The position numbers and the translations under genes are program-made. DNA of 33,356 nt. Source: Clostridia bacterium (GTDB lineage Bacteria; Bacillota; Clostridia; Oscillospirales; CAG-272). Shown piece after piece: positions 4,498 through 33,356 of this stretch. The stretch covers positions 1 through 33,356 of the forward strand of contig JAGBBQ010000071.1 in assembly GCA_017938425.1 (NCBI GenBank). The letters run 5' to 3'. Numbering within the stretch: the stretch's first letter is position 1; every line of letters begins with the position of its first letter. The notes beneath the pieces are model-generated. The model did not search any database. It was not told the DNA's origin and saw only the letters and a program-made list of their open reading frames with translations.

Positions 4498-5274
4498 TTA
4501 TTTGCGCTGCGCGCGTCGGTCGATCGCACGCGTGCCAACGGCGCAGAGCGCGAAGATCGTGGTGCCCGCAAGCGTTACGAGCGCAACGCGCAGCCACGGC
4601 ACGGACGAAAGGCCGCTCAGGGCAAGCTCGCCCGAGATCTGCAGCGCCGCACAGATCGCGATAACGTCGTACACCGCGGCGGCAAGAAGAAATACGCTGC
4701 CCGCAAGGAACAGGGCAAACGCCGCCGAGGAGAAGTCCATTGCCTCGGAAATATAGAAGAGCACGAGAAGCAAAATCAGCGTTTCGGGCACCATATAGGT
4801 CGCGTTATAAGCAAAGGAGCCCGCCAGCACCGCCGAGGTGGGGATCGTGAGCCCCGCCCAGACCGTCGCACCCGAGATCACGTGGCAGATATAGCGAAGG
4901 ACCGACGCGAGCGCCGCGCCCGAGAGCAGCGCCGTGCTCTGGCGCATACCGCTTCTGCGGAAAACACCGCCGAGGCCGAGCATCGCGTAGGCGATCACGT
5001 AGTCGAGCAGGATGACGGCAAGCACCGAGGCAAAGCCGGTCACGTAAGAAAGCGTGCGCAGGCCGAGCAGCTGCTGGATCGCGCCGTATACCGTGCCTGC
5101 GGCAAGGCCGTATTTTGCACCGTGGCGGTAAGAGATCAGCACGATCGGGAGCATCGAGGCAAAGGTGACCGAGCCGCCCGCGGGCAGCTCCGCGAGCTTC
5201 AGCATACTGAGCACCGTGGCAAGCGCGATCATAACGGCACTCTCGACGAGCGCTAAGGTCTTTTTGTTTTTCAT
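4498..5274 (-). CDS. thiT: Thiamine ECF transporter S component ThiT, with extra C-terminal membrane segments
   Basis: A 258-residue, very hydrophobic protein. The region around residues 1-185 matches ThiT, the thiamine-binding S component of energy-coupling-factor transporters. Visible family features are the N-terminal MKNKKTLALVESAVMIAL, the GLAAGTVYGAIQ segment and RYICHVISGATVWAG. ThiT pairs with the shared EcfA/A'/T module, which is not in this window. Characterised ThiT proteins are close to 190-200 residues; here about 60-70 more residues with two further predicted helices follow. The start at 5274 is chosen because GGAGG lies 9 bases upstream; an in-frame extension further upstream would run into the leader hairpin. 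Expression is under a TPP riboswitch, which independently supports thiamine specificity. Confidence 0.9.
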   Translation of the reverse strand: MKNKKTLALVESAVMIALATVLSMLKLAELPAGGSVTFASMLPIVLISYRHGAKYGLAAGTVYGAIQQLLGLRTLSYVTGFASVLAVILLDYVIAYAMLGLGGVFRRSGMRQSTALLSGAALASVLRYICHVISGATVWAGLTIPTSAVLAGSFAYNATYMVPETLILLLVLFYISEAMDFSSAAFALFLAGSVFLLAAAVYDVIAICAALQISGELALSGLSSVPWLRVALVTLAGTTIFALCAVGTRAIDRRAQRK

Positions 5275-5294
5275 AGAGAAACGCCTCCGAAATA

Positions 5295-5331
5295 GAATTC
5301 GCCACACAGAAAATATCCGTGTGGCGAGTTC
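5295..5331 (-). promoter_or_regulatory. Expression-platform hairpin between TPP riboswitch and thiT RBS
   Basis: GAACTCGCCACAC on the minus strand pairs with GTGTGGCGAATTC around a loop of about 10 bases, giving a long near-perfect stem. It lies directly between the riboswitch aptamer and the GGAGG of thiT. No T-run follows, so it is not a typical intrinsic terminator. It may act in translation control or RNA stability. Confidence 0.65.
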
Positions 5332-5420
5332 TAAAAGCATCTTCCTACGACGGCATTATCCGTATCAGGTATAAGGGTTTGGAAGCCTCCATCTCAGCCT
5401 TGCGGCACCCCTGATATTCT
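5332..5420 (-). promoter_or_regulatory. TPP riboswitch (thi box)
   Basis: The minus strand reads the thi-box conserved blocks in order: GGGGTGCC, GGCTGAGAT, ACCCTT, ACCTGAT, CGGATAATGCCG and CGTAGGAAG. These cover the TPP-pyrimidine-binding CTGAGA region and the ACCTGA/GGATAATGC/GTAGG core. The closing P1 helix can form between ATC near 5417 and GAT near 5339. It controls thiT, so thiamine pyrophosphate should switch transporter expression off. Recognition is by conserved primary sequence and is near certain; the exact ends are approximate. Confidence 0.95.
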
Positions 5421-5440
5421 TCTGTTGATAGCGTATGGAC

Positions 5441-5470
5441 AGTATAACACCGCAGGCAGCATTTTGTCAA
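5441..5470 (-). promoter_or_regulatory. Promoter of the riboswitch-thiT transcript
   Basis: Minus-strand TTGACA (5465-5470), an 18-base spacer and TATACT (5441-5446). It is placed immediately upstream of the TPP aptamer, in the gap after thiamine pyrophosphokinase. Confidence 0.75.
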
Positions 5471-5510
5471 GAGAAAATCAAAAAATTTTCTGCCGTTCCC
5501 TTTTGCCCCG

Positions 5511-6161
5511 TCAGCTTTTTTTGTTTTCTCTCTCGGGTGCCGAAAGCACGCAAAGGATCGCGCCGCGCTTGACCGAAACGGTTACGCTCTCGCCGAGAGC
5601 GGTGTTGGAGACGCCGAGAGGAAAATCGTTTTGAAGGCTTCCCTCCGTAAGCGTATACGCGGTGCCCGCGATCGTGACCCCCTCGCATACGGGCGAGAGA
5701 GCAAACACGCCGAGCGGCTGCCCCGGCACGGTCACAAGCATCTGCGCGCCGTCCGAAAAGGCAACCATACGCACACCCTCTCCAACGAGAGCGGCGATCC
5801 TGCCCTCGCTTGCGATGCGATACAGGAGCTGCATATTTGCGACCGTGTGGTCCGCGCGGCCGCCAAGGCCGCCGTATATCTCAAAGCGCGTATAGCCGCG
5901 CTTTACGCCCTCAAGATAGGCGAGATAGGTATCGGTCTCATCCTTCCTGACAGGAAAGCGGACGAGGGGGATATCCGCGGGCGGCGGCACCGCAAGCGAA
6001 TCGAGATCTCCGACCAGCAGTGACGGCGCTCTTCCCTCGCGAAGGCAGGTGAGAAGCCCGCCGTCCACGGCGATGAGAAGATCCCCGTCTCCAAGCGCGG
6101 GAAGCGGACCGCTCTCGCCTGCGCCCACGAGGTAACAGATCTTTTCCTTCATATCCTTCAC
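5511..6161 (-). CDS. thiN: Thiamine pyrophosphokinase
   Basis: A 216-residue enzyme that transfers pyrophosphate from ATP to thiamine, giving the cofactor TPP in the cytoplasm. Family motifs seen are AVDGG near residue 33, VGDLDS near 51, KDETDTYLAY near 73 and GGRADHTVANMQLL near 100, the usual TPK catalytic and ATP-binding elements; the length is also typical. The frame opens with GTG at 6161, four bases after the upstream stop. An ATG at 6152 is an alternative start with a GGGG-type site 8-11 bases before it, so the true N-terminus may be three residues shorter. It precedes the riboswitch-controlled thiT, giving a thiamine salvage pair: uptake then pyrophosphorylation. Confidence 0.92.
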   Translation of the reverse strand: MKDMKEKICYLVGAGESGPLPALGDGDLLIAVDGGLLTCLREGRAPSLLVGDLDSLAVPPPADIPLVRFPVRKDETDTYLAYLEGVKRGYTRFEIYGGLGGRADHTVANMQLLYRIASEGRIAALVGEGVRMVAFSDGAQMLVTVPGQPLGVFALSPVCEGVTIAGTAYTLTEGSLQNDFPLGVSNTALGESVTVSVKRGAILCVLSAPERENKKS

Positions 6162-11047: not shown

Positions 11048-11947
11048 ATGGTTACCCCGATCCGCTTGGACGATATTTTTTACTCCTCCCACACGCTTTC
11101 GATCGAAAATACGGATCTCACCGTCACGCTGGATAACGGCTTGAGAGACAATAAGGTAGAGAAGGCAAGCCTGCACAGCCACCCGGTCTTCGAGCTGCAG
11201 GCCGTATTGCATGCGGATATGATGCTCGACCTCGCGGGGCGAGAGAGCATCCGCCTTTGCGAGCACGACCTCTGCCTGATTCCGCCCGACACCTATCACG
11301 GCGTCCGACCGCTTTCGGACACCGAGCGGATCACCCTGCGCTTCTCCTGCGAGAGGAACGCCGCCGAGGGGTGCGCGGATCTCTACCGCCGCTTTCACGG
11401 TCTGACGGAGGTGACCGTGCTGCGAAGCGCCAGGGAGTTCATCCCTCTGCTGCTTTCCATCCGCGCGGAGATCCTCTCGCCGCGGACGGCGGGTGACGCG
11501 CTGATGCGCGCTTATCTCACCGAGCTTTTCGTGCATCTCTTCCGCGCGCTCAACAGCGTCAGCGAGACGCCGAGCGCCAATCCCCTCTCCGAGAGTGACG
11601 ATGAGAACGCGCGCTATAACAAGATCGAGCTTCTGATGCAGTGGCGCATGGCAGAGATCTTCCGTGAGCAGGACCTTGCCGAGGTGCTCGGTCTTTCGGT
11701 CAGACAGACCAGCCGCGTGATGCAGCGCATCTTCGGAATGAGCTTTCGCAAAAAGCTTTTGGAGATACGGATGCACAGAGCCGCCGAGCTCCTTCTCACG
11801 ACGGACGGCGCGGTAGATCAGATCGGCGCCGCCGTCGGCTATACCTCTCCCTCGGGCTTCCACGTTGCCTTTTGCAAGGCGTTCGGCTGCACGCCGGGCG
11901 AGTATCGGGAGAGCAATACCGCAAGCAACTTTAAAAGTCGGACATAA
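11048..11947 (+). CDS. AraC-family transcriptional regulator, likely controller of the glycan operon
   Basis: A 299-residue regulator. The N-terminal part (about 1-190) has a cupin-type sensor pattern (SLHSHPVFELQAVLHADM...CLIPPDTYHGV), typical of sugar-responsive AraC proteins. The C-terminal 100 residues hold the two helix-turn-helix units: AEVLGLSVRQTSRVMQRIFG and the second unit with IGAAVGYTSPSGFHVAFCKAFGCTPGEY, the classic AraC signature. The start has AAAGGAG about 8 bases upstream. It sits 24 bases after the methyltransferase and directly upstream of the promoter of the six-gene glycan operon, which it probably activates. The inducer is unknown but should be a sugar or glycan fragment. 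The exact binding site is not known. Confidence 0.9.
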   Translation: MVTPIRLDDIFYSSHTLSIENTDLTVTLDNGLRDNKVEKASLHSHPVFELQAVLHADMMLDLAGRESIRLCEHDLCLIPPDTYHGVRPLSDTERITLRFSCERNAAEGCADLYRRFHGLTEVTVLRSAREFIPLLLSIRAEILSPRTAGDALMRAYLTELFVHLFRALNSVSETPSANPLSESDDENARYNKIELLMQWRMAEIFREQDLAEVLGLSVRQTSRVMQRIFGMSFRKKLLEIRMHRAAELLLTTDGAVDQIGAAVGYTSPSGFHVAFCKAFGCTPGEYRESNTASNFKSRT

Positions 11948-12045: not shown

Positions 12046-12744
12046 ATGAAAAAAGCAATCGAAATTCTCACTTCGCGCCGTTTTTTGCTTATCCTGACGG
12101 CGATCGGAATCACCGCCACCTACTGCATCTTTCCTTCCCCCTTTTATCTCGTGCTTCCGCTTTACATCTCTCTCTTCGTCGGTATGCTGACCTCGAAGGC
12201 GAGCCGCTACAGCTTTCTGATCGGGGGACTGAACTCTATTCTCTACACGATCACCTACATATCCTTCGGCACCTATATGCAGGCCTTCTACGCCTTCTTC
12301 TTCTCCTGCCTGATGCAGATCGCGACCTTCTTCACTTGGTCGAAGCGCGCGTATAAGGACTCCACGGTCTTTCGCCGTATGACGAAGAAAATGTATCTCG
12401 GCATCGGGGTCGGCTTTGCGCTCTGCTATGCCGCAGCCATCTTCGTTTTGACGCTGCTCGGCTCGAAATTCATTTATCTTGACACCTTCACCTCGCTGCT
12501 CAGCATCCTCGTGACGGTGATGCACCTCTGCTCCTTCCGCGAGGCACCGTTCGTTCACGCGGCAAGCTCGCTGATCGGCCTTTCTCTCTCGGTCGCGCTC
12601 GTAGCGGAGGATCCCTCCCGCTGGCCCTTCCTGATCAGCGGCATTTACGGCGCGATCTGCGTTTGGAGAAGCATTTTCGCTATCTGGAAACTCTATAAGG
12701 AGCAGCAGGCGGCAGCGTCCTCCAAGGAAACGGCCGCCGTTTGA
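12046..12744 (+). CDS. PnuC-like small-molecule transporter (membrane protein)
   Basis: A 232-residue integral membrane protein with about seven hydrophobic segments. The arrangement resembles PnuC/SWEET-like vitamin transporters: a mid-protein segment ending FFTWSKRAYKDS, then LDTFTSLLSILVTVMHLCSFRE where PnuC proteins have their conserved LD-x-L-S-T-V-L-S-x-x-A-Q helix, then a final helix with WRSIFAIW. PnuC proteins move nicotinamide riboside or other nucleosides and vitamins by facilitated diffusion. Similarity is moderate and the ligand cannot be named; in this operon it may carry a sugar-derived compound. The start has GAGG 6 bases upstream. It is the first gene of the operon and the only transporter candidate in it. 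Confidence 0.55.
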   Translation: MKKAIEILTSRRFLLILTAIGITATYCIFPSPFYLVLPLYISLFVGMLTSKASRYSFLIGGLNSILYTITYISFGTYMQAFYAFFFSCLMQIATFFTWSKRAYKDSTVFRRMTKKMYLGIGVGFALCYAAAIFVLTLLGSKFIYLDTFTSLLSILVTVMHLCSFREAPFVHAASSLIGLSLSVALVAEDPSRWPFLISGIYGAICVWRSIFAIWKLYKEQQAAASSKETAAV

Positions 12745-12774
12745 TACCATTCACATATAAAGGAAAAGATCGCT

Positions 12775-14316
12775 ATGCTGAACATAAAAAACCGAAGAGA
12801 ATGTTTTTTTGACGATTTTCTGATCGACACCGAGAAAACCACCGCAAAAAGGATTTTGCATCATCCCGTGAAGCGCGAGCGCGTGCTTTTGCACGATGCG
12901 CCCTGGGAGGGCGACGGATGCACCTATCATCATATCTTTTTTGATCCCCGCTGGCACGGCGTGAAGGGGGATTATCCCAACGGAACCTACCGCATGTACT
13001 ATCTTGGCTACCACGGTGGCGAATTCTGCGAATTTTGGAACAAGGATCAGCTCGAGGGCGGCTTTCGCATCTGCTATGCGGAGAGCGGCGACGGCATTCA
13101 TTTTGAGAAGCCCGATCTTGGCATCTGCACCTACGGCGGCAGTACGCACAACAATCTGATCCTCGACAAAACCATTCATCCCGAATCCTGCCAGCTCTAC
13201 GTTTTCTACGACGAAAACCCCGATTGCCCCGAAAGCGAGCGCTACAAGGGCATCACCGCGTGGGATCTGCCCAAGGTGCCGGGGAAAAGAAACGAATTCC
13301 GCCTTTTCACGATGCTTTCCGCCGACGGCATTCATTTCCGCTTCGGCGAAATGATCACGAACAAGGGATACTTTGACTCGCTGAACATTATGATGTGGGA
13401 CGCGGAGGAAAAGCTTTACCGTCTCTACGCGCGCGGCATGCGCATCAAGGGTATGAGCGCAGAGGAAAGCGCAAGCCTCGGATGGGATGCCATCGGCGGA
13501 AAAATCGCGGATCCCTCGGTGAAGGCGTATCGCGAGGTATTCTATTTTGAATCCCGCGACTACAAGACCTGGAGCGATCCCGTCTGCCTCTCCTACGGTG
13601 ATGAGGACGAATACCACATGTACACCAACGGCATCAGCCGTTATGTCCGCGCGCCGCATATCTATATCGGCTTTCCCACGCGCTACAACGAGCGCACCGA
13701 ATGGACAAAAAGCTATGACGCGCTTTGCGGCAAGGAAAAGAGATGGAAGCGCTATCAATCCGCAAACCCAAGATCCGGCCTTGCCGTGACGGACTGCGGC
13801 TTTATGACCTCGCGTGACGGACTGCATTTCAACCGCTTCAAGGCCGCATTTATGCGCCCCGGCCCCGAGCATCCAAACGGCTGGCTCTACGGCGATTGCT
13901 ATCCCACGCCCATTCCGATGATTACGAAATCACAGATCCCGGGAGCGGACGACGAGCTTTCCTTCTATTCTGCGGATGGGCATTGCCTCGGCAACCCGGC
14001 TGCGCTTTATCGCTACGCGATCCGCATGGACGGCTTTGCTTCCCTGCACGCAGAGGAGGAGGAAACGGTGGTAACGAAGCCCTTCATTTACGAGGGCGAG
14101 AGCCTCTGCGCCAATATCTCCACCTCGGCGTTCGGGCATCTTTACTTCACTCTGACCTGCGAGGGCGAGAGTGCACAGAGCTGCGAGATCTTTGGTGACA
14201 GCATCGATAAGCGCATTCCTTTTCCTGACGACGCCGTGAAGAGATTTTCCGGAAAAGAGGTCGTTTTGCAAATAAAGCTTTACGATGCGGATATTTATTC
14301 TATCATATTCAGATAA
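12775..14316 (+). CDS. Five-bladed beta-propeller glycoside hydrolase-like protein
   Basis: A 513-residue soluble protein. The opening RECFFDDFLID and repeated blocks such as CYAESGDGIHFEKPD, LSADGIHFRFGE and MTSRDGLHFNRF show the S-x-D-G-x-x-F blade pattern of GH32/GH43/GH62-like five-bladed propellers; the FFDDFLID N-terminus is shared with a large uncharacterised group of such proteins. A C-terminal beta-sandwich of about 100 residues follows (from about 410). The enzyme class is inferred; catalytic acids could not be assigned safely. No signal peptide is seen, so it should act in the cytoplasm. RBS AAAGGA precedes the ATG. It is the second gene of the operon, 30 bases after the membrane protein and 18 before the first sialidase-like gene. 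Confidence 0.65.
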   Translation: MLNIKNRRECFFDDFLIDTEKTTAKRILHHPVKRERVLLHDAPWEGDGCTYHHIFFDPRWHGVKGDYPNGTYRMYYLGYHGGEFCEFWNKDQLEGGFRICYAESGDGIHFEKPDLGICTYGGSTHNNLILDKTIHPESCQLYVFYDENPDCPESERYKGITAWDLPKVPGKRNEFRLFTMLSADGIHFRFGEMITNKGYFDSLNIMMWDAEEKLYRLYARGMRIKGMSAEESASLGWDAIGGKIADPSVKAYREVFYFESRDYKTWSDPVCLSYGDEDEYHMYTNGISRYVRAPHIYIGFPTRYNERTEWTKSYDALCGKEKRWKRYQSANPRSGLAVTDCGFMTSRDGLHFNRFKAAFMRPGPEHPNGWLYGDCYPTPIPMITKSQIPGADDELSFYSADGHCLGNPAALYRYAIRMDGFASLHAEEEETVVTKPFIYEGESLCANISTSAFGHLYFTLTCEGESAQSCEIFGDSIDKRIPFPDDAVKRFSGKEVVLQIKLYDADIYSIIFR

Positions 14317-14334
14317 TTTTCAAGGAGTGATCTT

Positions 14335-15441
14335 ATGAAAATCATTGGAAAAAGAGTGCACGCGATCCCGCCGACAAGGCAGAACCCCCGCAGCGGCGAG
14401 GGGGACTTCATCCGTCTGCCCGACGGCAGAATTATGTATGCCTATTCCGATTATTACACCGAAGGGCCGAGCGATCACGCCCCCTCTCGGATCAGCGCCG
14501 TCTTCTCCTCCGACGAGGGAGAGAGCTTCGGCGGCCACCGCGTTCTGATCCCGCCGCGCGCGGATATCGTCAACCGTATGTGCGTGACCCTGATGCCGAT
14601 GCAAAACGGCGAGATCGGTATGTTTTACGGCGAGAAGTATCTCTCTGCCGAGGGGCAGGTCTATATGCGGCTGATGCTGACGAGAACGGGGGACGGCGAG
14701 CACTTCTCCTCCCCGATCTGCTGTACACCCGACACCAGGTACAACGTATTTGAGAACGCGCGCGTGATCCGCCTCTCCACGGGGCGCATCCTTATCCCCT
14801 CGAATCTTCACCCCTACGGCGAGGATGGCAGCCTTTGCAGCCGGGGCACTGCGGAGTTCTTCTATTCCGACGATGACGGGATGACCTTCCATAGAGGTGC
14901 GCGCACGGAATGCCCCTGCGAAAATCTCTCGACCGGCCTGCAGGAGACCGGCGTCTTGGAGATCGAGGGCGGCCGCGTGCTTGCCTTCTCGCGCACGAGC
15001 GGTGCCTGCCAATACATCTCGCTTTCCGAGGACGGCGGCGAGAGCTTCTCGGCGCCTCTTCCCTCCCCCTACTTCACCTCGCCGACCTCGCTTTTGCATA
15101 TGCGCCATATGCCCGACGGGCGCACGCTGGCCGTATGGAATCCCGTACCGCCCACGCCCGTAACGAAGGATGACCCGAAGCGCTCGGGCTGCTGGGCGCG
15201 CACGCCGCTTGCCTGCGCCGTCGCGGACGGCATGGGTGAGAAATTTCTCGGCGACGTATTCGGCGTACCTGCCAAGGTGTTTATTCTTGAGGACGATCCG
15301 ACCGAGTGCTTCTGCTACCCCGCGGTATTCTTCGGCAAGGATTATTTCCTCTGCGCGTATTATCACTCCTACGGCTCGGGCTTTCCGCTCTCCGCAAGCG
15401 TAATAAAAAAAATCGACCTCTCCGAGCTGGAGGAGGCCTAA
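14335..15441 (+). CDS. Sialidase-superfamily protein (Asp-box propeller), paralogue A
   Basis: A 368-residue six-bladed-propeller protein of the sialidase/neuraminidase superfamily (BNR_2-like). Asp-box motifs S-x-D-x-G-x-x-F are visible at residues 58-65 (SSDEGESF), 117-124 (RTGDGEHF), 178-185 (SDDDGMTF) and 231-238 (SEDGGESF). GDFIRLPDGRI near 23 resembles the F-R-I-P arginine region, and LQETGVLEIEGGRVLAFSR near 202 resembles the glutamate/arginine strand of exo-sialidases. It lacks a signal peptide and wall anchor, so it would cleave imported glycans inside the cell. Sialic acid is not proven as substrate; related propellers act on other sugars. RBS AAGGAG lies 8 bases upstream. A close paralogue follows after 20 bases. 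Confidence 0.75.
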   Translation: MKIIGKRVHAIPPTRQNPRSGEGDFIRLPDGRIMYAYSDYYTEGPSDHAPSRISAVFSSDEGESFGGHRVLIPPRADIVNRMCVTLMPMQNGEIGMFYGEKYLSAEGQVYMRLMLTRTGDGEHFSSPICCTPDTRYNVFENARVIRLSTGRILIPSNLHPYGEDGSLCSRGTAEFFYSDDDGMTFHRGARTECPCENLSTGLQETGVLEIEGGRVLAFSRTSGACQYISLSEDGGESFSAPLPSPYFTSPTSLLHMRHMPDGRTLAVWNPVPPTPVTKDDPKRSGCWARTPLACAVADGMGEKFLGDVFGVPAKVFILEDDPTECFCYPAVFFGKDYFLCAYYHSYGSGFPLSASVIKKIDLSELEEA

Positions 15442-15461
15442 ACAAGAGGAGACACGAAACG

Positions 15462-16559
15462 ATGAAGGTTATAGGAAGACGGGTGCACGCCATCGTGCCC
15501 AACGAGCAAAATGCCCGAAATGGCGGCGGCGACTTTATTCGCCTGCCGGACGGCAGAATTATGTTCGCCTACTCAGATCATTATACGGGCAACAATCACG
15601 ATCATTCGCCCGCGCGCATCAGCGCGATCTTTTCCTCGGACGAGGGCGAAAGCTTTGGTGACTACCGCGTGGTGATCCCCTCGGACGAGCGCGTCGTCAA
15701 CCGAATGTTCGGCTTTTTCCTTCCCTTACAAAACGGAGAGATCGGCCTATTCTACGGGGAAAAATTTATGAATGCGGAAGGAAGGATCTGCATGCACACG
15801 ATGCTGACGAGAACGAAGGACGGAGAGCATTTCTCCGAGCCGATCGACTGCACGCCGGATGCAAAATACGCGGTGATCAACAACGCACGCGCGATCCGCC
15901 TTTCCTCGGGGCGCATTTTGATCCCCACGAACGATCATCCCCACGATGAAGACGGAAATCCGCGCCTTCGCGGCAGCTTTGAGCTTTATTATTCCGACGA
16001 CGACGGCAAAAGCTTTAAAAAATCCTGCCGCATTGACAATCCTCTGAAAAACGATCCTGCCGGCCTACAGGAAACCGGCGTGATCGAGATCGAGGGCGGC
16101 AGGGTGCTGGCCTACTCGCGTACCTACGCAGGCTCGCAGTTCATCTGCGTTTCCGAGGACGGCGGCGAGAGCTTTTCCACTCCCGAGCCCTCTCCCTTCT
16201 TCACCTCCCCCTGCTCACCCATGCACATGCGCCATCTCGCGGATGGAAGAACGGTTGCCGTTTGGAATCCGCTTCCTCCAACGCCCCTGAAGGACTACTC
16301 CTTTATGAGCTGTGGCGAGCGCTCCCCGCTTGCTCTTGCCGTTGTGAACGGCAAGGGAGGCGAATTTCTCGGCCCCTACTTCTTCAGCGCGAAGGCCAAG
16401 GTCTTTCTTCTTGAGGATGATCCGAAGGAGGTCTATTGCTATCCTGCCGTGTTTGAGGGAGAGGACTACCTCCTCTGCTCCTATTTTCATTCCTACGGAA
16501 CCGGCTTTCCGCTTTCCGCCACCGTGATCAAAAAGGTGATGCTCTCGGAAATCGAGTGA
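15462..16559 (+). CDS. Sialidase-superfamily protein (Asp-box propeller), paralogue B
   Basis: A 365-residue protein colinear from end to end with its upstream neighbour: both start MK-[IV]-IG-[KR]-RVHAI, share the GDFIRLPDGRIM block, the SSDEGESFG and SEDGGESFS Asp-boxes and the FPLSA-[ST]-VIKK end. The pair arose by tandem duplication. The same six-bladed sialidase fold and cytoplasmic location are inferred. Differences cluster in loops (for example NNHDHSP against GPSDHAP, and NPLKNDPAGLQE against CPCENLSTGLQE), suggesting different linkage or substituent preference. The ATG at 15462 is chosen because AGAGGAG lies about 10 bases upstream; an open extension into the previous gene has no such site. 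Confidence 0.77.
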   Translation: MKVIGRRVHAIVPNEQNARNGGGDFIRLPDGRIMFAYSDHYTGNNHDHSPARISAIFSSDEGESFGDYRVVIPSDERVVNRMFGFFLPLQNGEIGLFYGEKFMNAEGRICMHTMLTRTKDGEHFSEPIDCTPDAKYAVINNARAIRLSSGRILIPTNDHPHDEDGNPRLRGSFELYYSDDDGKSFKKSCRIDNPLKNDPAGLQETGVIEIEGGRVLAYSRTYAGSQFICVSEDGGESFSTPEPSPFFTSPCSPMHMRHLADGRTVAVWNPLPPTPLKDYSFMSCGERSPLALAVVNGKGGEFLGPYFFSAKAKVFLLEDDPKEVYCYPAVFEGEDYLLCSYFHSYGTGFPLSATVIKKVMLSEIE

Positions 16560-16593
16560 CCGAATTTTGAGCGATTTTGGAAAGGATACGGCT

Positions 16594-17559
16594 ATGAGTA
16601 AATTAAGCGGAATCGAACAAGGGCTCGAAATCGACGCCGCAGAGCAGACCGAAAACGGCGTGCGCACGCCGTATAACAAGGCGCATTTTGAATCCATCGG
16701 CGTAACCCGCGTTTGGGAAAAATACGACGGTGCTCTCTCCTTCGGAGAGGGACAGGTGCTCGCCATCGTGGATGACGGATGCAATCTTTCCGTTCCCGAA
16801 TGGCAGACCGTGCATCCCTGGGGACCGAAGGTGGTTGCCTCCTGGAACGTATACGAGGAAAATAACGATCCCTCGCACGTGCCGCCCGGCTACCACGGCA
16901 CGACCGTGGGCTACCCCTCCTCTCTTTGCTACAATGGACTTTGCGGCATCGCCTTCCGCAACCAAACCCTACCGATCCGCGCCTGCACGATCGTGCATTT
17001 GCCGAAGATCGAGGGCGAGGACGCAACGCTTGCAAAGGCGCTGGACTACGTAGCGGAGCACGCCGCCGAATACAATATCACCGCCGTCAATCTTTCCGCG
17101 TTGGATGACGTGCCGCACACCGAGCCCGTGCCCACCGTGCTGGATGCATCGCTTGCGCGCCTGCGAGAGATGAACATTTGGGTGAGCGCCCCCTGCGGCA
17201 ACCTTCAGCACACGTACGGAATCTCCTGGCCCGCTTGCCAGGAAAACTGCTACGCGATCGGCTCTGTGAAGGACGAGAAGGTCTACAATGACCGATACAA
17301 CAACACCGATCTTCTGGTGCACGCCGACTTCACCTCCTCCTCGAATGCCTACGCCGCCGCAAGCTTTATGATCTGGCGCGAGGCCGTGGAAAAAACGGGC
17401 TTCCCTTGGAAGGACTACGGCAAAACCATGCCCGAGGCCGCGATGGCAATGTTCAAGCAGACCGGCAAGGAATATACCGACGAGGTAACGGGGCTTTCCT
17501 TCAAGGCGCTGGATCTCGAAAAGGTGATCGACCTTATTATGGAAAGCAAGGGAAAATAA
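16594..17559 (+). CDS. Subtilisin-family (S8) serine peptidase-like protein, cytoplasmic
   Basis: A 321-residue protein with the S8 catalytic order Asp-His-Ser. The aspartate is in LAIVDDGCN (D60), the histidine in YHGTTVGY (H101, equal to HGTxVAG), the oxyanion asparagine in PCGN (N203) and the serine in ADFTSSSNAYAAASF (S249 or S250, where GTSMAxP is usual). There is no signal peptide and no propeptide, so it would act inside the cell as made. The serine block departs from the family consensus, so activity is likely but not certain. The start at 16594 has AAAGGA about 8 bases upstream. Its place between sialidase-like and hexosaminidase-like genes points to glycopeptide breakdown or processing of an operon partner. 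Confidence 0.75.
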   Translation: MSKLSGIEQGLEIDAAEQTENGVRTPYNKAHFESIGVTRVWEKYDGALSFGEGQVLAIVDDGCNLSVPEWQTVHPWGPKVVASWNVYEENNDPSHVPPGYHGTTVGYPSSLCYNGLCGIAFRNQTLPIRACTIVHLPKIEGEDATLAKALDYVAEHAAEYNITAVNLSALDDVPHTEPVPTVLDASLARLREMNIWVSAPCGNLQHTYGISWPACQENCYAIGSVKDEKVYNDRYNNTDLLVHADFTSSSNAYAAASFMIWREAVEKTGFPWKDYGKTMPEAAMAMFKQTGKEYTDEVTGLSFKALDLEKVIDLIMESKGK

Positions 17560-17581
17560 AAGGCGACTTCTAAAGCCTTTT
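17558..17581 (+). other. Small intra-operon hairpin after the S8 gene
   Basis: AAAAGGC (17558-17564) pairs with GCCTTTT (17575-17581) around a 10-base loop, beginning inside the stop codon. The 62-base gap here is the longest in the operon. It may be a weak attenuator or RNA-processing site. Confidence 0.4.
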
Positions 17582-17621
17582 AAACTTAAATAAGCAAGTA
17601 AATCACGAAAGGATGCCCCTT

Positions 17622-19604
17622 ATGAATTTGTATACGAATTTTAAAGACAGTTATGTAAAGCTTTCGCAACAAACGAGCGTACTGTTGGATAAAAGCACCG
17701 TGATCGAAAGCAAAAACCCCGTGATCCTCAAAACGCTTTCGCCGCTGCTTGTTGGCGAAAAATGCGGTGCGGCCGCCGCGATCCGCTTTCTCCCCTTTGA
17801 CGAAAATGCAAGGCAGAGGGTGGTTGCCGCCTTTGGCGAGGTGCTCGAGGAGACAGAGGACGCCTATCTTCTCGAGGTAAAGCCCGAGAGCATCTGCGTG
17901 TACGCGGCGGGCGAGCGCGGATACCTCTACGGTGCATGCACGCTGTATTCGCACTATCGCGATGGCATCGGCGAGGGCTGTATTTACAACGTCCCCTGCG
18001 TACCGTTCCGCGCGGTGAAAATGTATCTGCCCGCGGAGGAAAAGCTGGATGAGTTTTACTATATGCTGGATATGTTTATGCATTACGGCTACAATGCGCT
18101 CGTTCTGGAGCTCGGCGGTGCAATGGAATACAAAAAGCATCCCGAGATCAACGAATTCTGGGTAAATTACTGCAAGGAATTCGAGGAATACAGCGGAAAA
18201 ACGAAAAAATTCCAGTTTTCACAGTACTGGGGCAAAAACTCCATTCATATTGAAAACGGCGGCGGAAAATATCTTTCGCAAAGCACCGTCAAGGAGATCT
18301 GTACCTATGCGCGCGCGCACGGTCTTGAGCCGATCCCCGAGGTTCCGTGCCTTTCCCACTCGGATTACCTGATCGCGGGGCGAAAGGATATCGCGGAGAT
18401 CCCCGACGATCCCGCTCCCGACACCTACTGCCCCTCCAATCCCAAGACCTACGAGCTCCTTTTCGACGTATTCGACGAGGTGATCGAGGTTTTCCGCCCC
18501 AAGGTAATGCACATCGGACACGACGAGTATTACGTCAGCTGCGTTTGCCCGCGCTGCAAGGGCAAGCGTGCGGCAGAGGTTTTTGCCGAAGATATCACGA
18601 AGATCCACGACTATCTTGCCAAGCAAGGCATTCGCACGATGCTATGGTCGGAAAAGCTGCTCAACGCTTATAACACCGCCTGGCATCCCGCCGGCGGCGC
18701 GTATCTGACGCGTCTTTTCCACGATACGGATGACAAGGTCACCTTCAAGGGCAAGGATTATACCGTCAAGCGTCTGGATATTCTCTCCCACGCCCAAACC
18801 GCGATGCTCCCTCCCGACGCCAAGTTTTTCACCACGGAGGAGACCTATCCGGCCATCCGCATGATCCCGAGCGACGTGATCGCGATGAACTGGTATTGGT
18901 CTTATTATCCGCTGGGAGATCGCGACTATCATTACAACCATATTCCTATGGTATACGGAAACTTCCAGGGACAGCTCTTCTCCGATTGGAGCAGCCGCGT
19001 GGTTGCGGGCGCAAAGGGCTTTGCCGTTTCCAGCTGGGGTGCATCCGACTTCAAGCAAATGCAAAGAGGCAGGCGCCTGGCCGACGTCGTATATGCATCG
19101 CGCATGGCGTGGAGCAAGGAATACGACGATAAAAAGATCGGTACGGAGATCACACGCACTGCCGCCTCTCTTTTTGATTACAGATTCCGCGACGCGCTTG
19201 CGGGCTCGCACATCGATATCCTTCACACGACGGATCTCTTGATCCCGCACGGGTACTTCGGCTGCGGCGACTTTCTTATGGACGATATGTTCCGCCTCGG
19301 ATATTATCACATTTTCTACAAGGACGGAACCGACGAAAAGGTGGAAATTCTTTGGGGCGAAAACATCGGCCCTGCCACCGTCAAAAGCGCAAGCGGAGAG
19401 AGCGGCTTTGAGGACGACGGGCGCCCCGCCGATTTCAATTACTGCATGGAAACCATCTTCACCTGCGACTTTGAGGACAAGGATGACGGAAGATACTATC
19501 GCTTCGTGATCCCGACGAAAAAGCCCGTGGAGCAAGTGAAGCCCGAGCTTTTCTCAAAATACGAGGATAACGTGGTGATCAGCCGCATTACGGTCAAAAA
19601 TTAA
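17622..19604 (+). CDS. GH20 beta-N-acetylhexosaminidase-like protein
   Basis: A 660-residue protein. Residues about 1-125 match the GH20 N-terminal alpha/beta domain (YLLEVKPESICVYAAGERGYLYGACTL). The TIM barrel follows with the catalytic Asp-Glu pair in VMHIGHDEYY (D301, E302), where GH20 enzymes use substrate-assisted catalysis on terminal GlcNAc or GalNAc. The barrel includes SSWGASDF near 475, the usual tryptophan region, and about 120 C-terminal residues are of unclear fold. A CVCPRCKG cysteine cluster (C307, C309, C312) just after the catalytic pair is unusual and might hold a metal. No signal peptide is present. ATG 17622 is preferred over 17613 because AAAGGA lies 8 bases before it. 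It is the last gene of the operon. Confidence 0.85.
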   Translation: MNLYTNFKDSYVKLSQQTSVLLDKSTVIESKNPVILKTLSPLLVGEKCGAAAAIRFLPFDENARQRVVAAFGEVLEETEDAYLLEVKPESICVYAAGERGYLYGACTLYSHYRDGIGEGCIYNVPCVPFRAVKMYLPAEEKLDEFYYMLDMFMHYGYNALVLELGGAMEYKKHPEINEFWVNYCKEFEEYSGKTKKFQFSQYWGKNSIHIENGGGKYLSQSTVKEICTYARAHGLEPIPEVPCLSHSDYLIAGRKDIAEIPDDPAPDTYCPSNPKTYELLFDVFDEVIEVFRPKVMHIGHDEYYVSCVCPRCKGKRAAEVFAEDITKIHDYLAKQGIRTMLWSEKLLNAYNTAWHPAGGAYLTRLFHDTDDKVTFKGKDYTVKRLDILSHAQTAMLPPDAKFFTTEETYPAIRMIPSDVIAMNWYWSYYPLGDRDYHYNHIPMVYGNFQGQLFSDWSSRVVAGAKGFAVSSWGASDFKQMQRGRRLADVVYASRMAWSKEYDDKKIGTEITRTAASLFDYRFRDALAGSHIDILHTTDLLIPHGYFGCGDFLMDDMFRLGYYHIFYKDGTDEKVEILWGENIGPATVKSASGESGFEDDGRPADFNYCMETIFTCDFEDKDDGRYYRFVIPTKKPVEQVKPELFSKYEDNVVISRITVKN

Positions 19605-28966: not shown

Positions 28967-29803
28967 TCAATCCTCTTTCGCGCCGTTCACGGCAGGAAGG
29001 CCGAAGCTCTTGAACACCGCCACCGCACGCTCCACGTCCTCCAGCAAGGTTTCCTCCGAGGGCAAATGACAAGGCATTTCCAGCGCCTCATAGCGCGATG
29101 CGGCAAAACTGTGATACTGCAATACCTTTATTTTTTCGATCCCCTTCAGCCCAAGAAGAAATTCTGCGATTTTCTCGCACTCGCCGTCATTATACCCCTT
29201 CACAAGCGGATAGCGAATTTCCACCCTGCATCCCCGCTCGCAAAGAAAGGACAGGTTCTCTAAAATCCGCGCATTTCCCTTTCCCGTGCATCGCAGGTGC
29301 ACCGCCTCGTCCATCGCCTTAACATCATATAAAAACTTCTCCGTGTAGGGGATCAAATTTTCCAGCACCTCGCGCTTGGCGTGCCCGCAGGTATCGATAT
29401 AAACACCGATGCCGCGATCGAACAGCGCCTTTGCAAGTGCGACGGCAAATTCAGGCTGAGCCAGGCATTCTCCGCCCGAAAGCGTTACACCGCCCTTTTC
29501 ACCGAAAAACGGAGCATCGGCGCTCAAAAGCGCCGCAAGCGCCTCGGCCTCATACTCCATGCCGTATACCCAAAGCGCACCCGTGGGACAACGCTCTGCC
29601 GCTTCGGCACTTTGCTCGCCACGGCAAGCACCGCAGGAGATGCATTTTCCTTTGAAATACGCAACCTGCCTCTCAAACGAAAGGCTTTCCGGATTGTGGC
29701 ACCACAAGCAGCGAAGCGGGCATCCTTTAAAAAACACCGTGGTTCTCAGCCCCTCGCCGTCGTGAATCTCCATGCGCTTGATTCCCGAAATCCTTCCCTT
29801 CAT
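28967..29803 (-). CDS. Glycyl radical enzyme activase (radical SAM)
   Basis: A 278-residue radical SAM protein of the PflA family, which installs the glycyl radical on its partner enzyme using SAM and a [4Fe-4S] cluster. The cluster-binding CxxxCxxC is in GCPLRCLWCHNPES (C28, C32, C35). The SAM-binding GGE is in VTLSGGECLAQPEF near 107. A single auxiliary four-cysteine set follows (C54, C57, C60, C72 in CISCGAC...CPTGA), whereas many non-PFL activases have two such clusters. Its ATG overlaps the stop of the partner enzyme gene (ATGA), so the two are translationally coupled and act as a pair. Anaerobic expression is expected. Confidence 0.93.
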   Translation of the reverse strand: MKGRISGIKRMEIHDGEGLRTTVFFKGCPLRCLWCHNPESLSFERQVAYFKGKCISCGACRGEQSAEAAERCPTGALWVYGMEYEAEALAALLSADAPFFGEKGGVTLSGGECLAQPEFAVALAKALFDRGIGVYIDTCGHAKREVLENLIPYTEKFLYDVKAMDEAVHLRCTGKGNARILENLSFLCERGCRVEIRYPLVKGYNDGECEKIAEFLLGLKGIEKIKVLQYHSFAASRYEALEMPCHLPSEETLLEDVERAVAVFKSFGLPAVNGAKED

Positions 29804-31854
29804 CGCGTCGACCTTTCTATAAACTCCATCTGTTCTTTTTCACTCAGCAAGGTATAGCGCACGTTCCAGCCGCAAAGTCTGACCTGCAGATTCGGATATT
29901 TTTCGGGATGCTTCCTTGCATCCATCAAGGTTTCGGTATCCAACACGTTATAATGAACGGCAAAGCCGCCCAGCGAAAAATACCCCTCCAGGCTTGAAAC
30001 CAAAGCACGAATGCCGTTCTCTCCCCGAACCGCCGAGGAATGCAAATCAATATCCGCGATCGCGCCGTTCGGCACTCTCGTTGCATCTATGCTTGCCACG
30101 GAAAGAAGATGTGGCGTTGCGCCCTCGCGGTCACAGCCGAAGCTTGCGCCGGTGTTTTGAGAAATCGGCTCGCCCAAGCATCTGCCATCCGCCGAAGCGG
30201 CGGTTTTTTCGCCGAACGCCCATCTCCAATTGATAGAAAACAGGCCGAGGCGCCATTTGCCGCCCTTGGCATTCGGCTTACAACGAACGGAATCTGAAAG
30301 AACGTCTACGATCCGTTTTGCGATCGCATCGGTGCGAGCATCCCCCATACCGTACTTCGGATATTTATTTTTAATCAGCAGTCTGAAATGCTCCTCGTTT
30401 TCCCAATTGGACTTCAAGATTTCAACAAAACGCGCAAGGCTGACCGTTCGATCCTCAAATACCGCTTTTCGAATCGCGGCAAGCGAGTCCGCCGCGGTCG
30501 CAAGTCCAAGCGCATTCAGCGAAGAGCTATTATATTTCGCGGTATAATCGCAGTACAAATCTCCCGCCTTCTCCAGCGCAGAGCAATAGGTCGCGGAAAG
30601 AATCGGAGCGGAATGAATTTTGGCATACTCCGCTTCAAAAAGATCCGTGAGCTCCATAGCACAGCCGCAAAGATACGAAAGCTGGCGGCAAAACTCCTCA
30701 AAAAGTGCCTCATAGCTATCAAGGCATCCGTTATTTTCCAGGCCGAGAAGCTCTCCCGTCAGCATATCGCGGCCACCGTTCAGCGCAAGCTCAAGCGCCT
30801 TGGGGACATTCACCCTTGCATTGCAGGAGCAGGTCAATTCTTCATCGCCGCCGCATTCATAGCATCCAACGATATGATAGCGAGCCGCATCTCTGTGCGT
30901 AACCCCTTGCCCCTCCAGGGCGCTGATCACGCATCGATCCGACATAAAAACGATGCTGTTATTTCCGGAGCGGATATATCGGAAGGCCGCCTCCACAAAA
31001 TCGTGCGGCGTTTTTTCATTCCATAACAGATGGAGCTTGACATTCTGCGTTTGCGCAGAGCCGTAGGCGTGCAAAAAAGCATACGAAAGCGCATTCGTCA
31101 GATCCACGCCGTTTTCATCCGATCCGCCGAGCGCAAACGGGATGTTTGCCACAGCCTTCAGGCGATCGATCTCCGCGATATAGTCCGCGATTAGAAGATC
31201 CGCATCTGCTTTATCCGCTTTTTCATAAAAAGGATAAAACAAGCCGTCCGGGCGGCCCAGCGTTCGCAAAACCGTTCCGTCAAAATATTGCTGGAGCACG
31301 TAATAAACGATGGAGGTCTGCATCGCCTCAAAAAGATTCGACGGCGCATGCTCGCAAAGTTCTCTCAGCCCGCGCGCCATCTCCTGCTTGCCTGCCGCAA
31401 GAGCCACGTCCGCCGCACGGCGCATAAAGCGAAGCGCCGCATCATAAACCCGCAAAAGGTTATCATAAAATGCTTCTGTTCCTTCGTCGGCACGGGCGGC
31501 ATACTCTGAGATCCGATTTCTGAGGCCGAAAATACCGAGAGAAATCACGCTCTCCCAGCCGGCGCTGGTATGCCCGAAATCGCAAGCACCCGTGTATGCC
31601 AAAGACTTGCTGTTTTGATATAGCTTACTTGCGCAAATCGGCGCATGCACCTCGTCCTGTCTTCCATACATGACCCGGCTTGCAATATTTCCGTGATCGG
31701 GCACGGCAAAAAAACGGTTTTCCTTCGGAATCGTCAGCTCGCACCGATCGAGCATTCTTTCAATTCTTTCACAATCCAAGCGCAAAACGTGATCGCTTGC
31801 CATCTTACCGTACTGATGGATATAATCTAAAATTTCTTCTTCCAAAAAAGGCAT
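29800..31854 (-). CDS. Glycyl radical enzyme of unknown substrate (PFL-like)
   Basis: A 684-residue glycyl radical enzyme. The glycyl radical loop near the C-terminus is QVRLCGWNVRYTLLS, with G662 as radical site and a cysteine just before it. The active-site loop has VGCYECGGDEE with C331 as thiyl radical residue and E333 in the G-C-x-E arrangement used by dehydratases and C-X lyases rather than the double cysteine of pyruvate formate-lyase. FGHTSAGWESVISLGIFGL (residues 93-111) matches the conserved G-H-T block. It is 100 or more residues shorter than PFL, CutC or glycerol dehydratase. Substrate and reaction are unknown. RBS GAAGGGAAG lies upstream of the ATG. It forms an operon with its activase and is divergent from an AraC regulator. 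Confidence 0.88.
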   Translation of the reverse strand: MPFLEEEILDYIHQYGKMASDHVLRLDCERIERMLDRCELTIPKENRFFAVPDHGNIASRVMYGRQDEVHAPICASKLYQNSKSLAYTGACDFGHTSAGWESVISLGIFGLRNRISEYAARADEGTEAFYDNLLRVYDAALRFMRRAADVALAAGKQEMARGLRELCEHAPSNLFEAMQTSIVYYVLQQYFDGTVLRTLGRPDGLFYPFYEKADKADADLLIADYIAEIDRLKAVANIPFALGGSDENGVDLTNALSYAFLHAYGSAQTQNVKLHLLWNEKTPHDFVEAAFRYIRSGNNSIVFMSDRCVISALEGQGVTHRDAARYHIVGCYECGGDEELTCSCNARVNVPKALELALNGGRDMLTGELLGLENNGCLDSYEALFEEFCRQLSYLCGCAMELTDLFEAEYAKIHSAPILSATYCSALEKAGDLYCDYTAKYNSSSLNALGLATAADSLAAIRKAVFEDRTVSLARFVEILKSNWENEEHFRLLIKNKYPKYGMGDARTDAIAKRIVDVLSDSVRCKPNAKGGKWRLGLFSINWRWAFGEKTAASADGRCLGEPISQNTGASFGCDREGATPHLLSVASIDATRVPNGAIADIDLHSSAVRGENGIRALVSSLEGYFSLGGFAVHYNVLDTETLMDARKHPEKYPNLQVRLCGWNVRYTLLSEKEQMEFIERSTR

Positions 31855-32869: not shown

Positions 32870-33356
32870 TTAAAACTCCACCAAAATGACAGTGTTGTTC
32901 TTGATTTCCTTGATTACGGGCGACCAGGAGAGCATTCGATCATCGTCAAGAAGATACCATCTTGCATCCGAGAGATCCGCACCCTCGATCTCAAGGGGCT
33001 TATCCTCGCCGGAAATGTTGGAGATCATCAAGGCATTTTTCTTTTCGTTGGTTGCGCAAACAGCGTAAACGCCTGCATCCGCGCCCTCCAGCGCCACCTG
33101 CGTGCCAAGCTTATACAGAGAGGCGAAGGCGGCGAAGGTATAATAAGCAGGCGAGAGCTTCGGGAAAGCAAGCGCGGGCAGGAACAAGGCGGAATAGGTG
33201 CTTCCGTCCAAGCGCGCATCATAGATCATCAGCATATCCACAGCGGTATTTTGCGTTCCCAGCATGATTGCCGCAACGTCTGCCGCGTGAACGGCCTTAT
33301 CACGATCCGCGCGAGAGGGAGGATTCCACTCGTTGATATGCGTTTCCACGTGGCCA
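32870..33356 (-). CDS. C-terminal fragment of a putative clan GH-A glycoside hydrolase (GH39-like)
   Basis: The gene enters from beyond the right edge; its last 161 residues are visible and in frame to the window end, with no internal start needed. The fragment opens GHVETHINEWNPP. The H-I-N-E-W-N pattern resembles the beta-7 strand of GH39/GH51-type TIM barrels, where H-I-T-E-[FW]-N carries the nucleophile glutamate. It is followed by helices (AADVAAIMLGTQNTAVDMLM) and a final strand-rich segment (VYAVCATNEKKNALMISNIS) like the C-terminal beta-sandwich of those enzymes. The family is tentative and the catalytic acid/base lies outside the window. Beta-xylosidase, iduronidase or another activity cannot be told apart. 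Confidence 0.55.
   Translation of the reverse strand, partial: GHVETHINEWNPPSRADRDKAVHAADVAAIMLGTQNTAVDMLMIYDARLDGSTYSALFLPALAFPKLSPAYYTFAAFASLYKLGTQVALEGADAGVYAVCATNEKKNALMISNISGEDKPLEIEGADLSDARWYLLDDDRMLSWSPVIKEIKNNTVILVEF

Follow-up and report, generated by a model that had tools for sequence, protein, structure and literature searches.

A clade of PnuC-like proteins encoded beside putative propeller and sialidase-fold proteins in Clostridia: a candidate glycoside import-and-cleave cassette

Introduction

What role does a membrane protein of the Pnu family play at the head of a run of glycosidase-like genes? The question is raised by a stretch of 33,356 nucleotides (contig JAGBBQ010000071.1 of assembly GCA_017938425.1; hereafter the window) from a Clostridia bacterium of the CAG-272 group, in which a PnuC-like gene is followed by genes for a putative propeller protein (P513), two sialidase-fold proteins (BNR1 and BNR2, of the family here called A4 BNR), a subtilisin-like (S8) protein and a GH20-like enzyme. 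Neither P513 nor the A4 BNR family has a specific Pfam or NCBIfam name. The original prediction, made from the letters of the window, proposed an intracellular pathway for an imported oligosaccharide or glycopeptide, or the processing of an internally made glycan.

Comparison with related genomes places the PnuC-like protein in a separate clade, here called type A. At about even chances, we consider the locus to be a small inducible import-and-cleave cassette for a small glycoside that would enter by a type A facilitator. The wider proposal, that type A as a whole is a Pnu branch turned glycoside facilitator, encoded with cytoplasmic P513 and A4 BNR proteins and allowing cleavage-driven uptake without ATP-binding cassette (ABC) transport, phosphotransferase system (PTS) or symport, is more tentative, and we rate it somewhat below even.

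Results and Discussion

Conserved core and variable extension

The nearest relative with the locus (genome G063, locus L132) carries it at the same chromosomal place, between a phosphoesterase gene and a methyltransferase gene whose products are 91% and 88% identical to their counterparts. Identities to the window proteins are 51% for the AraC-family regulator, 85% for the PnuC-like protein and 82% for P513, while the single BNR protein is 79% identical to BNR1. Behind this BNR gene follow genes on the opposite strand, and BNR2, the S8-like gene and the GH20 gene are missing from the place. The conserved core is formed by the AraC regulator, the PnuC-like protein, P513 (a probable propeller) and a sialidase-fold protein; BNR2, the S8-like protein and the GH20-like enzyme are an extension not common to the nearest relative. 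The order PnuC-P513-BNR also occurs in a more distant locus (L225), at identities of 33, 45 and 34%. Scattering of the genes among relatives, which the original prediction had named as evidence against itself, is thus confined to the protease and GH20 genes, the core having stayed together.

The regulator gene of the window, AraC1, lies 98 nt upstream of the PnuC-like gene and belongs to the same unit, and in 8 of the 24 type A loci described below the PnuC-like gene or its partner has an AraC-like gene next to it. BNR1 is nearer to the G063 copy than to its tandem paralogue BNR2 (64% identity), which suggests that the duplication probably predates the divergence of the two genomes. Loss in G063 is, in that case, as possible as gain in the window genome.

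Coupling of type A genes to P513 and BNR genes

A Pnu profile built from 17 homologues was searched against 69 genomes of the genus. A type A gene was found in 15 of them, at 258-316 bits; 37 further places scored 23-65 bits, a few of them in much longer frames that may not be Pnu. Outside the genus, type A genes occur in two genomes, in L225 and in 6 of 391 genomes of the class besides the source genome, with L292 (one of these six) and L228 being, by length and content, the same contig and counted as one locus. This gives 24 distinct type A loci. As a control set, 20 of the best 21 among the 37 lower-scoring places were used, one being left out.

P513 or a BNR_2 protein is encoded immediately next to the type A gene, in the same direction, in 12 of the 24 loci (the window, L132, L134, L135, L138, L141, L142, L145, L016, L225, L292 and L294), and in L296 a divergent P513 gene lies beyond the AraC gene. 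Excluding L225, a locus first reached by way of its P513 gene, leaves 11 of 23 loci paired, or 10 of 23 if only matches to our own profiles are counted; the BNR_2 protein of L294 was missed by our BNR profile, seen by eye and confirmed by Pfam, and others may have been missed too. The same P513 and BNR profiles had no match in the 20 control loci (225 kb), and Pfam, run on one neighbour in 17 of these, found no BNR_2. Fisher p values range from 0.0003 to 0.002 by counting rule (0.0007 for the profile-only rule, 10/23 against 0/20; 0.0008 for the Pfam-extended control, 11/23 against 0/17), but they treat the loci as independent and overstate the certainty, since the loci are related, with no correction for kinship, and the profiles were partly built from type A loci.

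The PnuC-like gene and its partner overlap by 4-7 nt in L132, L225, L142 and L145. Arrangements vary, with P513 before or after the PnuC-like gene, BNR alone, or both, and the paired loci are spread over different branches of the type A tree, which argues against a single copied locus. Looser neighbours of type A genes encode a GH39 enzyme (L140), a SASA esterase (L136) and a protein bearing a carbohydrate-binding module (CBM; L144). A GH20C gene stands behind the BNR gene in L134, and GH3 and GH127 genes lie near the type A genes of L293 and L295, respectively.

Features of the locus are collected in Table 1. As originally described, the PnuC-like to GH20 run consists of six co-directional, tightly packed genes, separated by 30, 18, 20, 34 and 53 nt in order when the ATG codons at 15462 (BNR2) and 16594 (S8-like gene) are taken as starts. 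The PnuC-like, sialidase-fold (BNR_2) and GH20 assignments are each borne out by Pfam scores above the cut-off.

Table 1. Features of the candidate cassette, with positions in the window
Feature	Position	Strand	Family score
AraC1, AraC-family regulator	11048..11947	+	HTH_18 78.2 bits
PnuC-like transporter, type A clade	12046..12744	+	PF04973 53.5 bits, cut-off 27.3
P513, putative five-bladed propeller with C-terminal beta-sandwich, candidate hydrolase or phosphorylase	12775..14316	+	no Pfam match
BNR1, sialidase-fold protein	14335..15441	+	BNR_2 61.2 bits, cut-off 31.4
BNR2, sialidase-fold protein, tandem paralogue of BNR1	15462..16559	+	BNR_2 64.9 bits, cut-off 31.4
Subtilisin-like (S8) protein, orphan	16594..17559	+	Pfam S8 18.0 bits, under cut-off 21.8
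GH20-like enzyme	17613..19604	+	PF00728 55.9 bits, cut-off 22.3

The type A PnuC-like proteins

By sequence, the window protein is a member of the Pnu family, and the type A profile matches the solved PnuC 4qtn at E 4e-23. The PnuC equivalog model of NCBIfam (TIGR01528), in contrast, did not match the window protein at E up to 1, and scored 29.2 bits, below its cut-off of 42.45, with the relative in L016. In a tree of the 24 type A sequences, the 20 control sequences and the 4qtn segment, type A and control clades were separated with support of 100/100, and the long-branched 4qtn was placed with the controls.

The two clades keep different parts of the 4qtn residue set. W173, N197, Y200 and W205 of 4qtn (segment numbering) are each present in 20/20 control sequences and in 3, 0, 1 and 3 of the 24 type A sequences, whereas Q76, D137 and E157 are found in 24, 24 and 22 of the 24 type A sequences and in none of the 20 controls; Q, F, W and D of 4qtn are kept in all 24. 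A changed substrate in type A is therefore plausible from these residue patterns, and the control clade need not consist of nicotinamide riboside transporters either. The residues mostly lost in type A are N, Y and W of the last helix of 4qtn and an earlier W, for all of which a part in vitamin binding is putative.

The most serious alternative is that type A proteins are ordinary Pnu transporters of vitamins or nucleosides riding in sugar operons, the sugar itself entering by other transporters. We consider this unlikely, although the type A proteins share with PnuC (nicotinamide riboside), PnuT (thiamine), PnuX (riboflavin) and PnuN (deoxynucleosides) the PF04973 domain and the length, and with 4qtn the Q, F, W, D and mostly the E named above. 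The loss, in most of them, of the N, the Y and two W, the failure to match or to reach the cut-off of the PnuC equivalog, and the repeated overlap with P513 and BNR genes set them apart.

Several points nevertheless weigh against a glycoside facilitator. Type A genes stand without a P513 or BNR gene beside them in 11 of the 24 loci (for example L133, L137, L139 and L146); conversely, 75 of 79 P513 loci lack a type A gene, as BNR homologues often do. The substrates reported for Pnu proteins are nicotinamide riboside, thiamine, riboflavin and, as a proposal, deoxynucleosides. Riboswitches give no clue either way: Rfam found no nicotinamide adenine dinucleotide (NAD), thiamine pyrophosphate (TPP) or flavin mononucleotide (FMN) riboswitch next to the type A gene of the window or of 10 other loci, but none next to the Pnu gene of 12 control loci either. 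Carbohydrate enzymes (GH20C and GH78) also adjoin control genes, in 2 of 17 neighbours scanned; the broader argument that a type A neighbour is any carbohydrate enzyme was dropped on this account.

The Pnu fold has been argued to be kin to that of SWEET transporters (PMC7162841), a kinship taken here from print, and SemiSWEET genes are reported in carbohydrate operons (PMC5972207); the window protein differs from both in being a Pnu protein by sequence. Among the matches listed for literature on Pnu and nicotinamide mononucleotide transporters, a scope outside which most subscription papers and all preprints fall, no Pnu protein was proposed for sugars. A plasmid search with the PnuC-like protein returned no match.

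Thiamine has a transporter of its own elsewhere in the window. A TPP riboswitch (RF00059, 72.6 bits, 5325-5422, minus strand) precedes a ThiT-type thiamine transporter gene in the region 4498-6161, where a thiamin pyrophosphokinase gene also lies beside it, so that the genome already has its own means of thiamine uptake.

Sialidase-fold proteins

In the A4 BNR family (22 sequences), R19, D47, N141, E204, R220, R287 and Y327 are invariant. With E up to 0.001, the family profile matched 74 different solved sequences, the best being 9eob (7.5e-19) and the GH181 sialidase Amuc_1547 (8axs, 1.5e-17), and E204, R220, R287 and Y327 are aligned to residues of the active site in the sialidase 9eob. R19 and D47 are tentatively assigned to the first Arg and the Asp of the GH33 site, by GH33 spacing and not by alignment.

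In the GH181 sialidase Amuc_1547, E204, R220 and R287 correspond to Glu218, Arg234 and Arg305, and Y327 to Gln350, where 9eob has Tyr. GH181 is marked by a Gln (Q350) at the site of the Tyr nucleophile and by a CBM-like domain (PMC10067855, PMC12018670). The window proteins resemble Amuc_1547 and GH33 sialidases in their BNR propeller, in their best solved matches and in the Glu and two Arg positions. They differ from Amuc_1547 in that the Tyr is invariant in all 22 sequences, that their 365-368 amino acids are filled by the propeller profile, leaving no room for a CBM-like domain, and that no signal peptide is visible. By keeping the Tyr that GH181 lacks, the family is in that respect more GH33-like.

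The conserved Arg/Glu/Tyr set suggests a carboxylate sugar as substrate, such as sialic acid, another ulosonic acid or a uronic acid. BNR neighbours in other loci are mixed and do not pick out a single substrate. By eye, BNR homologues adjoin a GPH-type sugar symporter gene (L118) and a glucuronate isomerase gene (L124), which hints that other transporters can serve a BNR enzyme and that uronic acids are candidate substrates. A third BNR homologue of the source genome (contig C43, L151 76-4248) lies 3 nt from a gene for a protein of 1013 amino acids that on visual inspection resembles a GH38 mannosidase, together with an AraC-like gene.

P513

No Pfam family, GH130, GH32 and GH43 included, matched P513 at E up to 10, and in NCBIfam only mannobiose phosphorylase did (E 0.08; 12.2 bits against a cut-off of 450). 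Weak matches of the P513 profile to GH130 and GH32 structures in PDB, the best at E 0.0008 and over about 60-80 residues, make the originally predicted five-bladed propeller plausible; likeness to these five-bladed enzymes, at E about 0.001, is of this weak kind. The P513 and BNR profiles, when compared, were not alike.

From 509 confirmed stretches, 79 P513 loci were kept, from Clostridia, Paenibacillus, Lentisphaerae, Planctomycetes, Verrucomicrobia and others. One Lentisphaeria metagenome-assembled genome holds several P513 genes (L216, L220, L222 and L223), some in tandem, and those of L223 stand with GH20-like and BNR-like genes. In L017 (6612-13058), four frames of 524-527 amino acids lie directly beside the P513 gene, and the one scanned is GH3.

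Export signals and direction of transport

None of the five soluble proteins has a strongly hydrophobic N-terminus, the best 15-residue mean being 0.81 against 2.45 in the protein of the adjoining ApbE gene, and the absence of visible signal peptides noted at first thus holds on N-terminal hydrophobicity. Corrected start sites could have changed this picture; reading upstream in frame adds no hydrophobic stretch, with the exception of BNR2, whose 57-codon extension overlaps the end of BNR1 and contains a leucine- and arginine-rich stretch of mean 1.43 with arginines inside.

Enzymes without visible signal peptides would also suit a cassette for the turnover or export of a glycan made by the cell itself, a Pnu/SWEET-type facilitator letting the sugar out, and SWEETs are described as bidirectional facilitators. 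We regard this as improbable: neither a glycosyltransferase gene nor a biosynthetic one is part of the unit (in L132 the scan ended at the right edge of the core), and an export-type hydrophobic N-terminus in 13 of the 62 P513 relatives examined (Lentisphaerae, Planctomycetes and others, none of them clostridial) fits foraging. AraC regulators, moreover, are more typical of inducible uptake.

Chance assembly, the S8-like protein and GH20

Equally improbable is that metabolic genes with no relation to one another came together by chance in a genome rich in carbohydrate enzymes. The genome has 19 GH20-matching pieces (some genes being in two pieces), an expanded paralogue family, and most P513 and many BNR genes lie elsewhere; against chance speak the core order, which the window genome shares with G063 as well as, at 33-45% identity, with L225, and the absence of P513 and BNR matches, by the same profiles, from the 20 control loci.

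The GH20-like enzyme has the Asp-Glu pair of its family, with HDE aligned to LDE of the solved 9fyl, and GH20 matches occur in 33 of 59 relatives, many of them weak. Three tandem GH20 paralogues, 63-70% identical to that of the window, lie on another contig of the same genome (C13:32998-39424, L048), near RecO, GTPase/KH and YbeY genes.

In the subtilisin-like protein, Asp, His and the oxyanion Asn align with S8 peptidases and the Ser was placed by eye only; the Pfam S8 score is below its cut-off, and a mycosin model of the type VII secretion system (T7SS) gave 29.4 bits, far below its own. A search of the source genome with the S8 family PF00082 found nothing at E 0.001. Apart from itself, the S8-like gene had no match in 59 relatives or in the 69 members of the genus, among which is G063; in 391 class genomes it had, besides the self-match, generic weak matches in 5 others. 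Phage and plasmid searches with the protein gave generic S8 matches only. We consider the protease an unexplained passenger. A glycopeptide pathway, in which the S8-like protein would trim the peptide and the glycosidases the glycan, is accordingly very improbable, for although the S8 gene is part of the run, with gaps of 34 and 53 nt on its two sides, and has the aligned residues, it has no close relative in the genomes searched, the core exists without it, BNR2 and GH20 in L132, and no peptide transporter gene was found in the scan, which covered 20 of the 24 genes called in the window.

Of the original prediction, an imported sugar fits, with no visible signal peptides and with a clade coupled to the same enzymes; the glycopeptide part found no support and was rejected as the principal reading.

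Catabolic genes

The original argument also leaned on missing catabolic genes. Among the same scanned window genes there is indeed no nanA, nanE or nanK, no nagA or nagB, and no ABC or sodium/solute symporter (SSS) gene, and in this the locus differs from known nan and nag catabolic loci, with which it shares sialidase-fold and hexosaminidase-like genes. The argument fails at the level of the genome, because other contigs carry a NanA-type lyase (C45; NF003164 356.5 bits, cut-off 281; TIGR00683 316.9, below 382) and a NagB-like protein (C51; PF01182 56.8 bits, cut-off 27; below the NCBIfam NagB cut-offs). The idea that the organism lacks such catabolism was rejected. Sialic acid could be used by way of the NanA-type lyase, a link between the C45 locus and the cassette being hypothetical. 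The surroundings of the NagB-like gene on C51 include a gene whose product, by eye, resembles NagA (L306 8494-9666).

Other features of the window

The source assembly (2.1 Mb in 132 contigs, 68.6% complete, the window being contig C57) carries the ApbE gene after the GH20 gene, on the opposite strand. Promoter and terminator scans were near chance (7 against 5.3 and 12 against 10.9, respectively). At 28967-31854, on the minus strand, are genes for a short glycyl radical enzyme (684 amino acids) resembling pyruvate formate-lyase (PFL) and an activase-looking neighbour, and PFL-like genes are also present in the type A loci L137, L140 and L296. A gene fragment at 32870-33355 (minus strand) has relatives in L140, L143 and L146; its relatives in L140 and L057 are GH39 by Pfam.

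Proposed mechanism and significance

In the import-and-cleave cassette proposed here, the AraC protein would sense the sugar or a product and turn the operon on, and the type A PnuC-like protein would let a small glycoside, of mono- to trisaccharide size, diffuse inward. P513 and the sialidase-fold enzymes would cleave it in the cytoplasm, which would hold the internal concentration low and drive uptake, and the products would pass to catabolic enzymes encoded elsewhere. Uptake by vitamin-type Pnu transporters is thought to be driven by phosphorylation, with a kinase as internal sink, and PnuT has reportedly been called a facilitator. A facilitator needs such a sink, and cleavage by P513 and BNR proteins in this role would account for the lack of ABC, PTS or symporter genes among those identified in the cassette.

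Should the type A clade as a whole transport sugars, a nutrient transporter of gut genomes has been misnamed, being annotated as a Pnu protein for vitamins or nucleosides, and the proposed kinship between Pnu and SWEET proteins would gain a case in which it can be tested at the level of function. New glycoside-active families may be represented by the paired enzymes, in particular by P513, which occurs in at least five bacterial groups and lacks a Pfam model.

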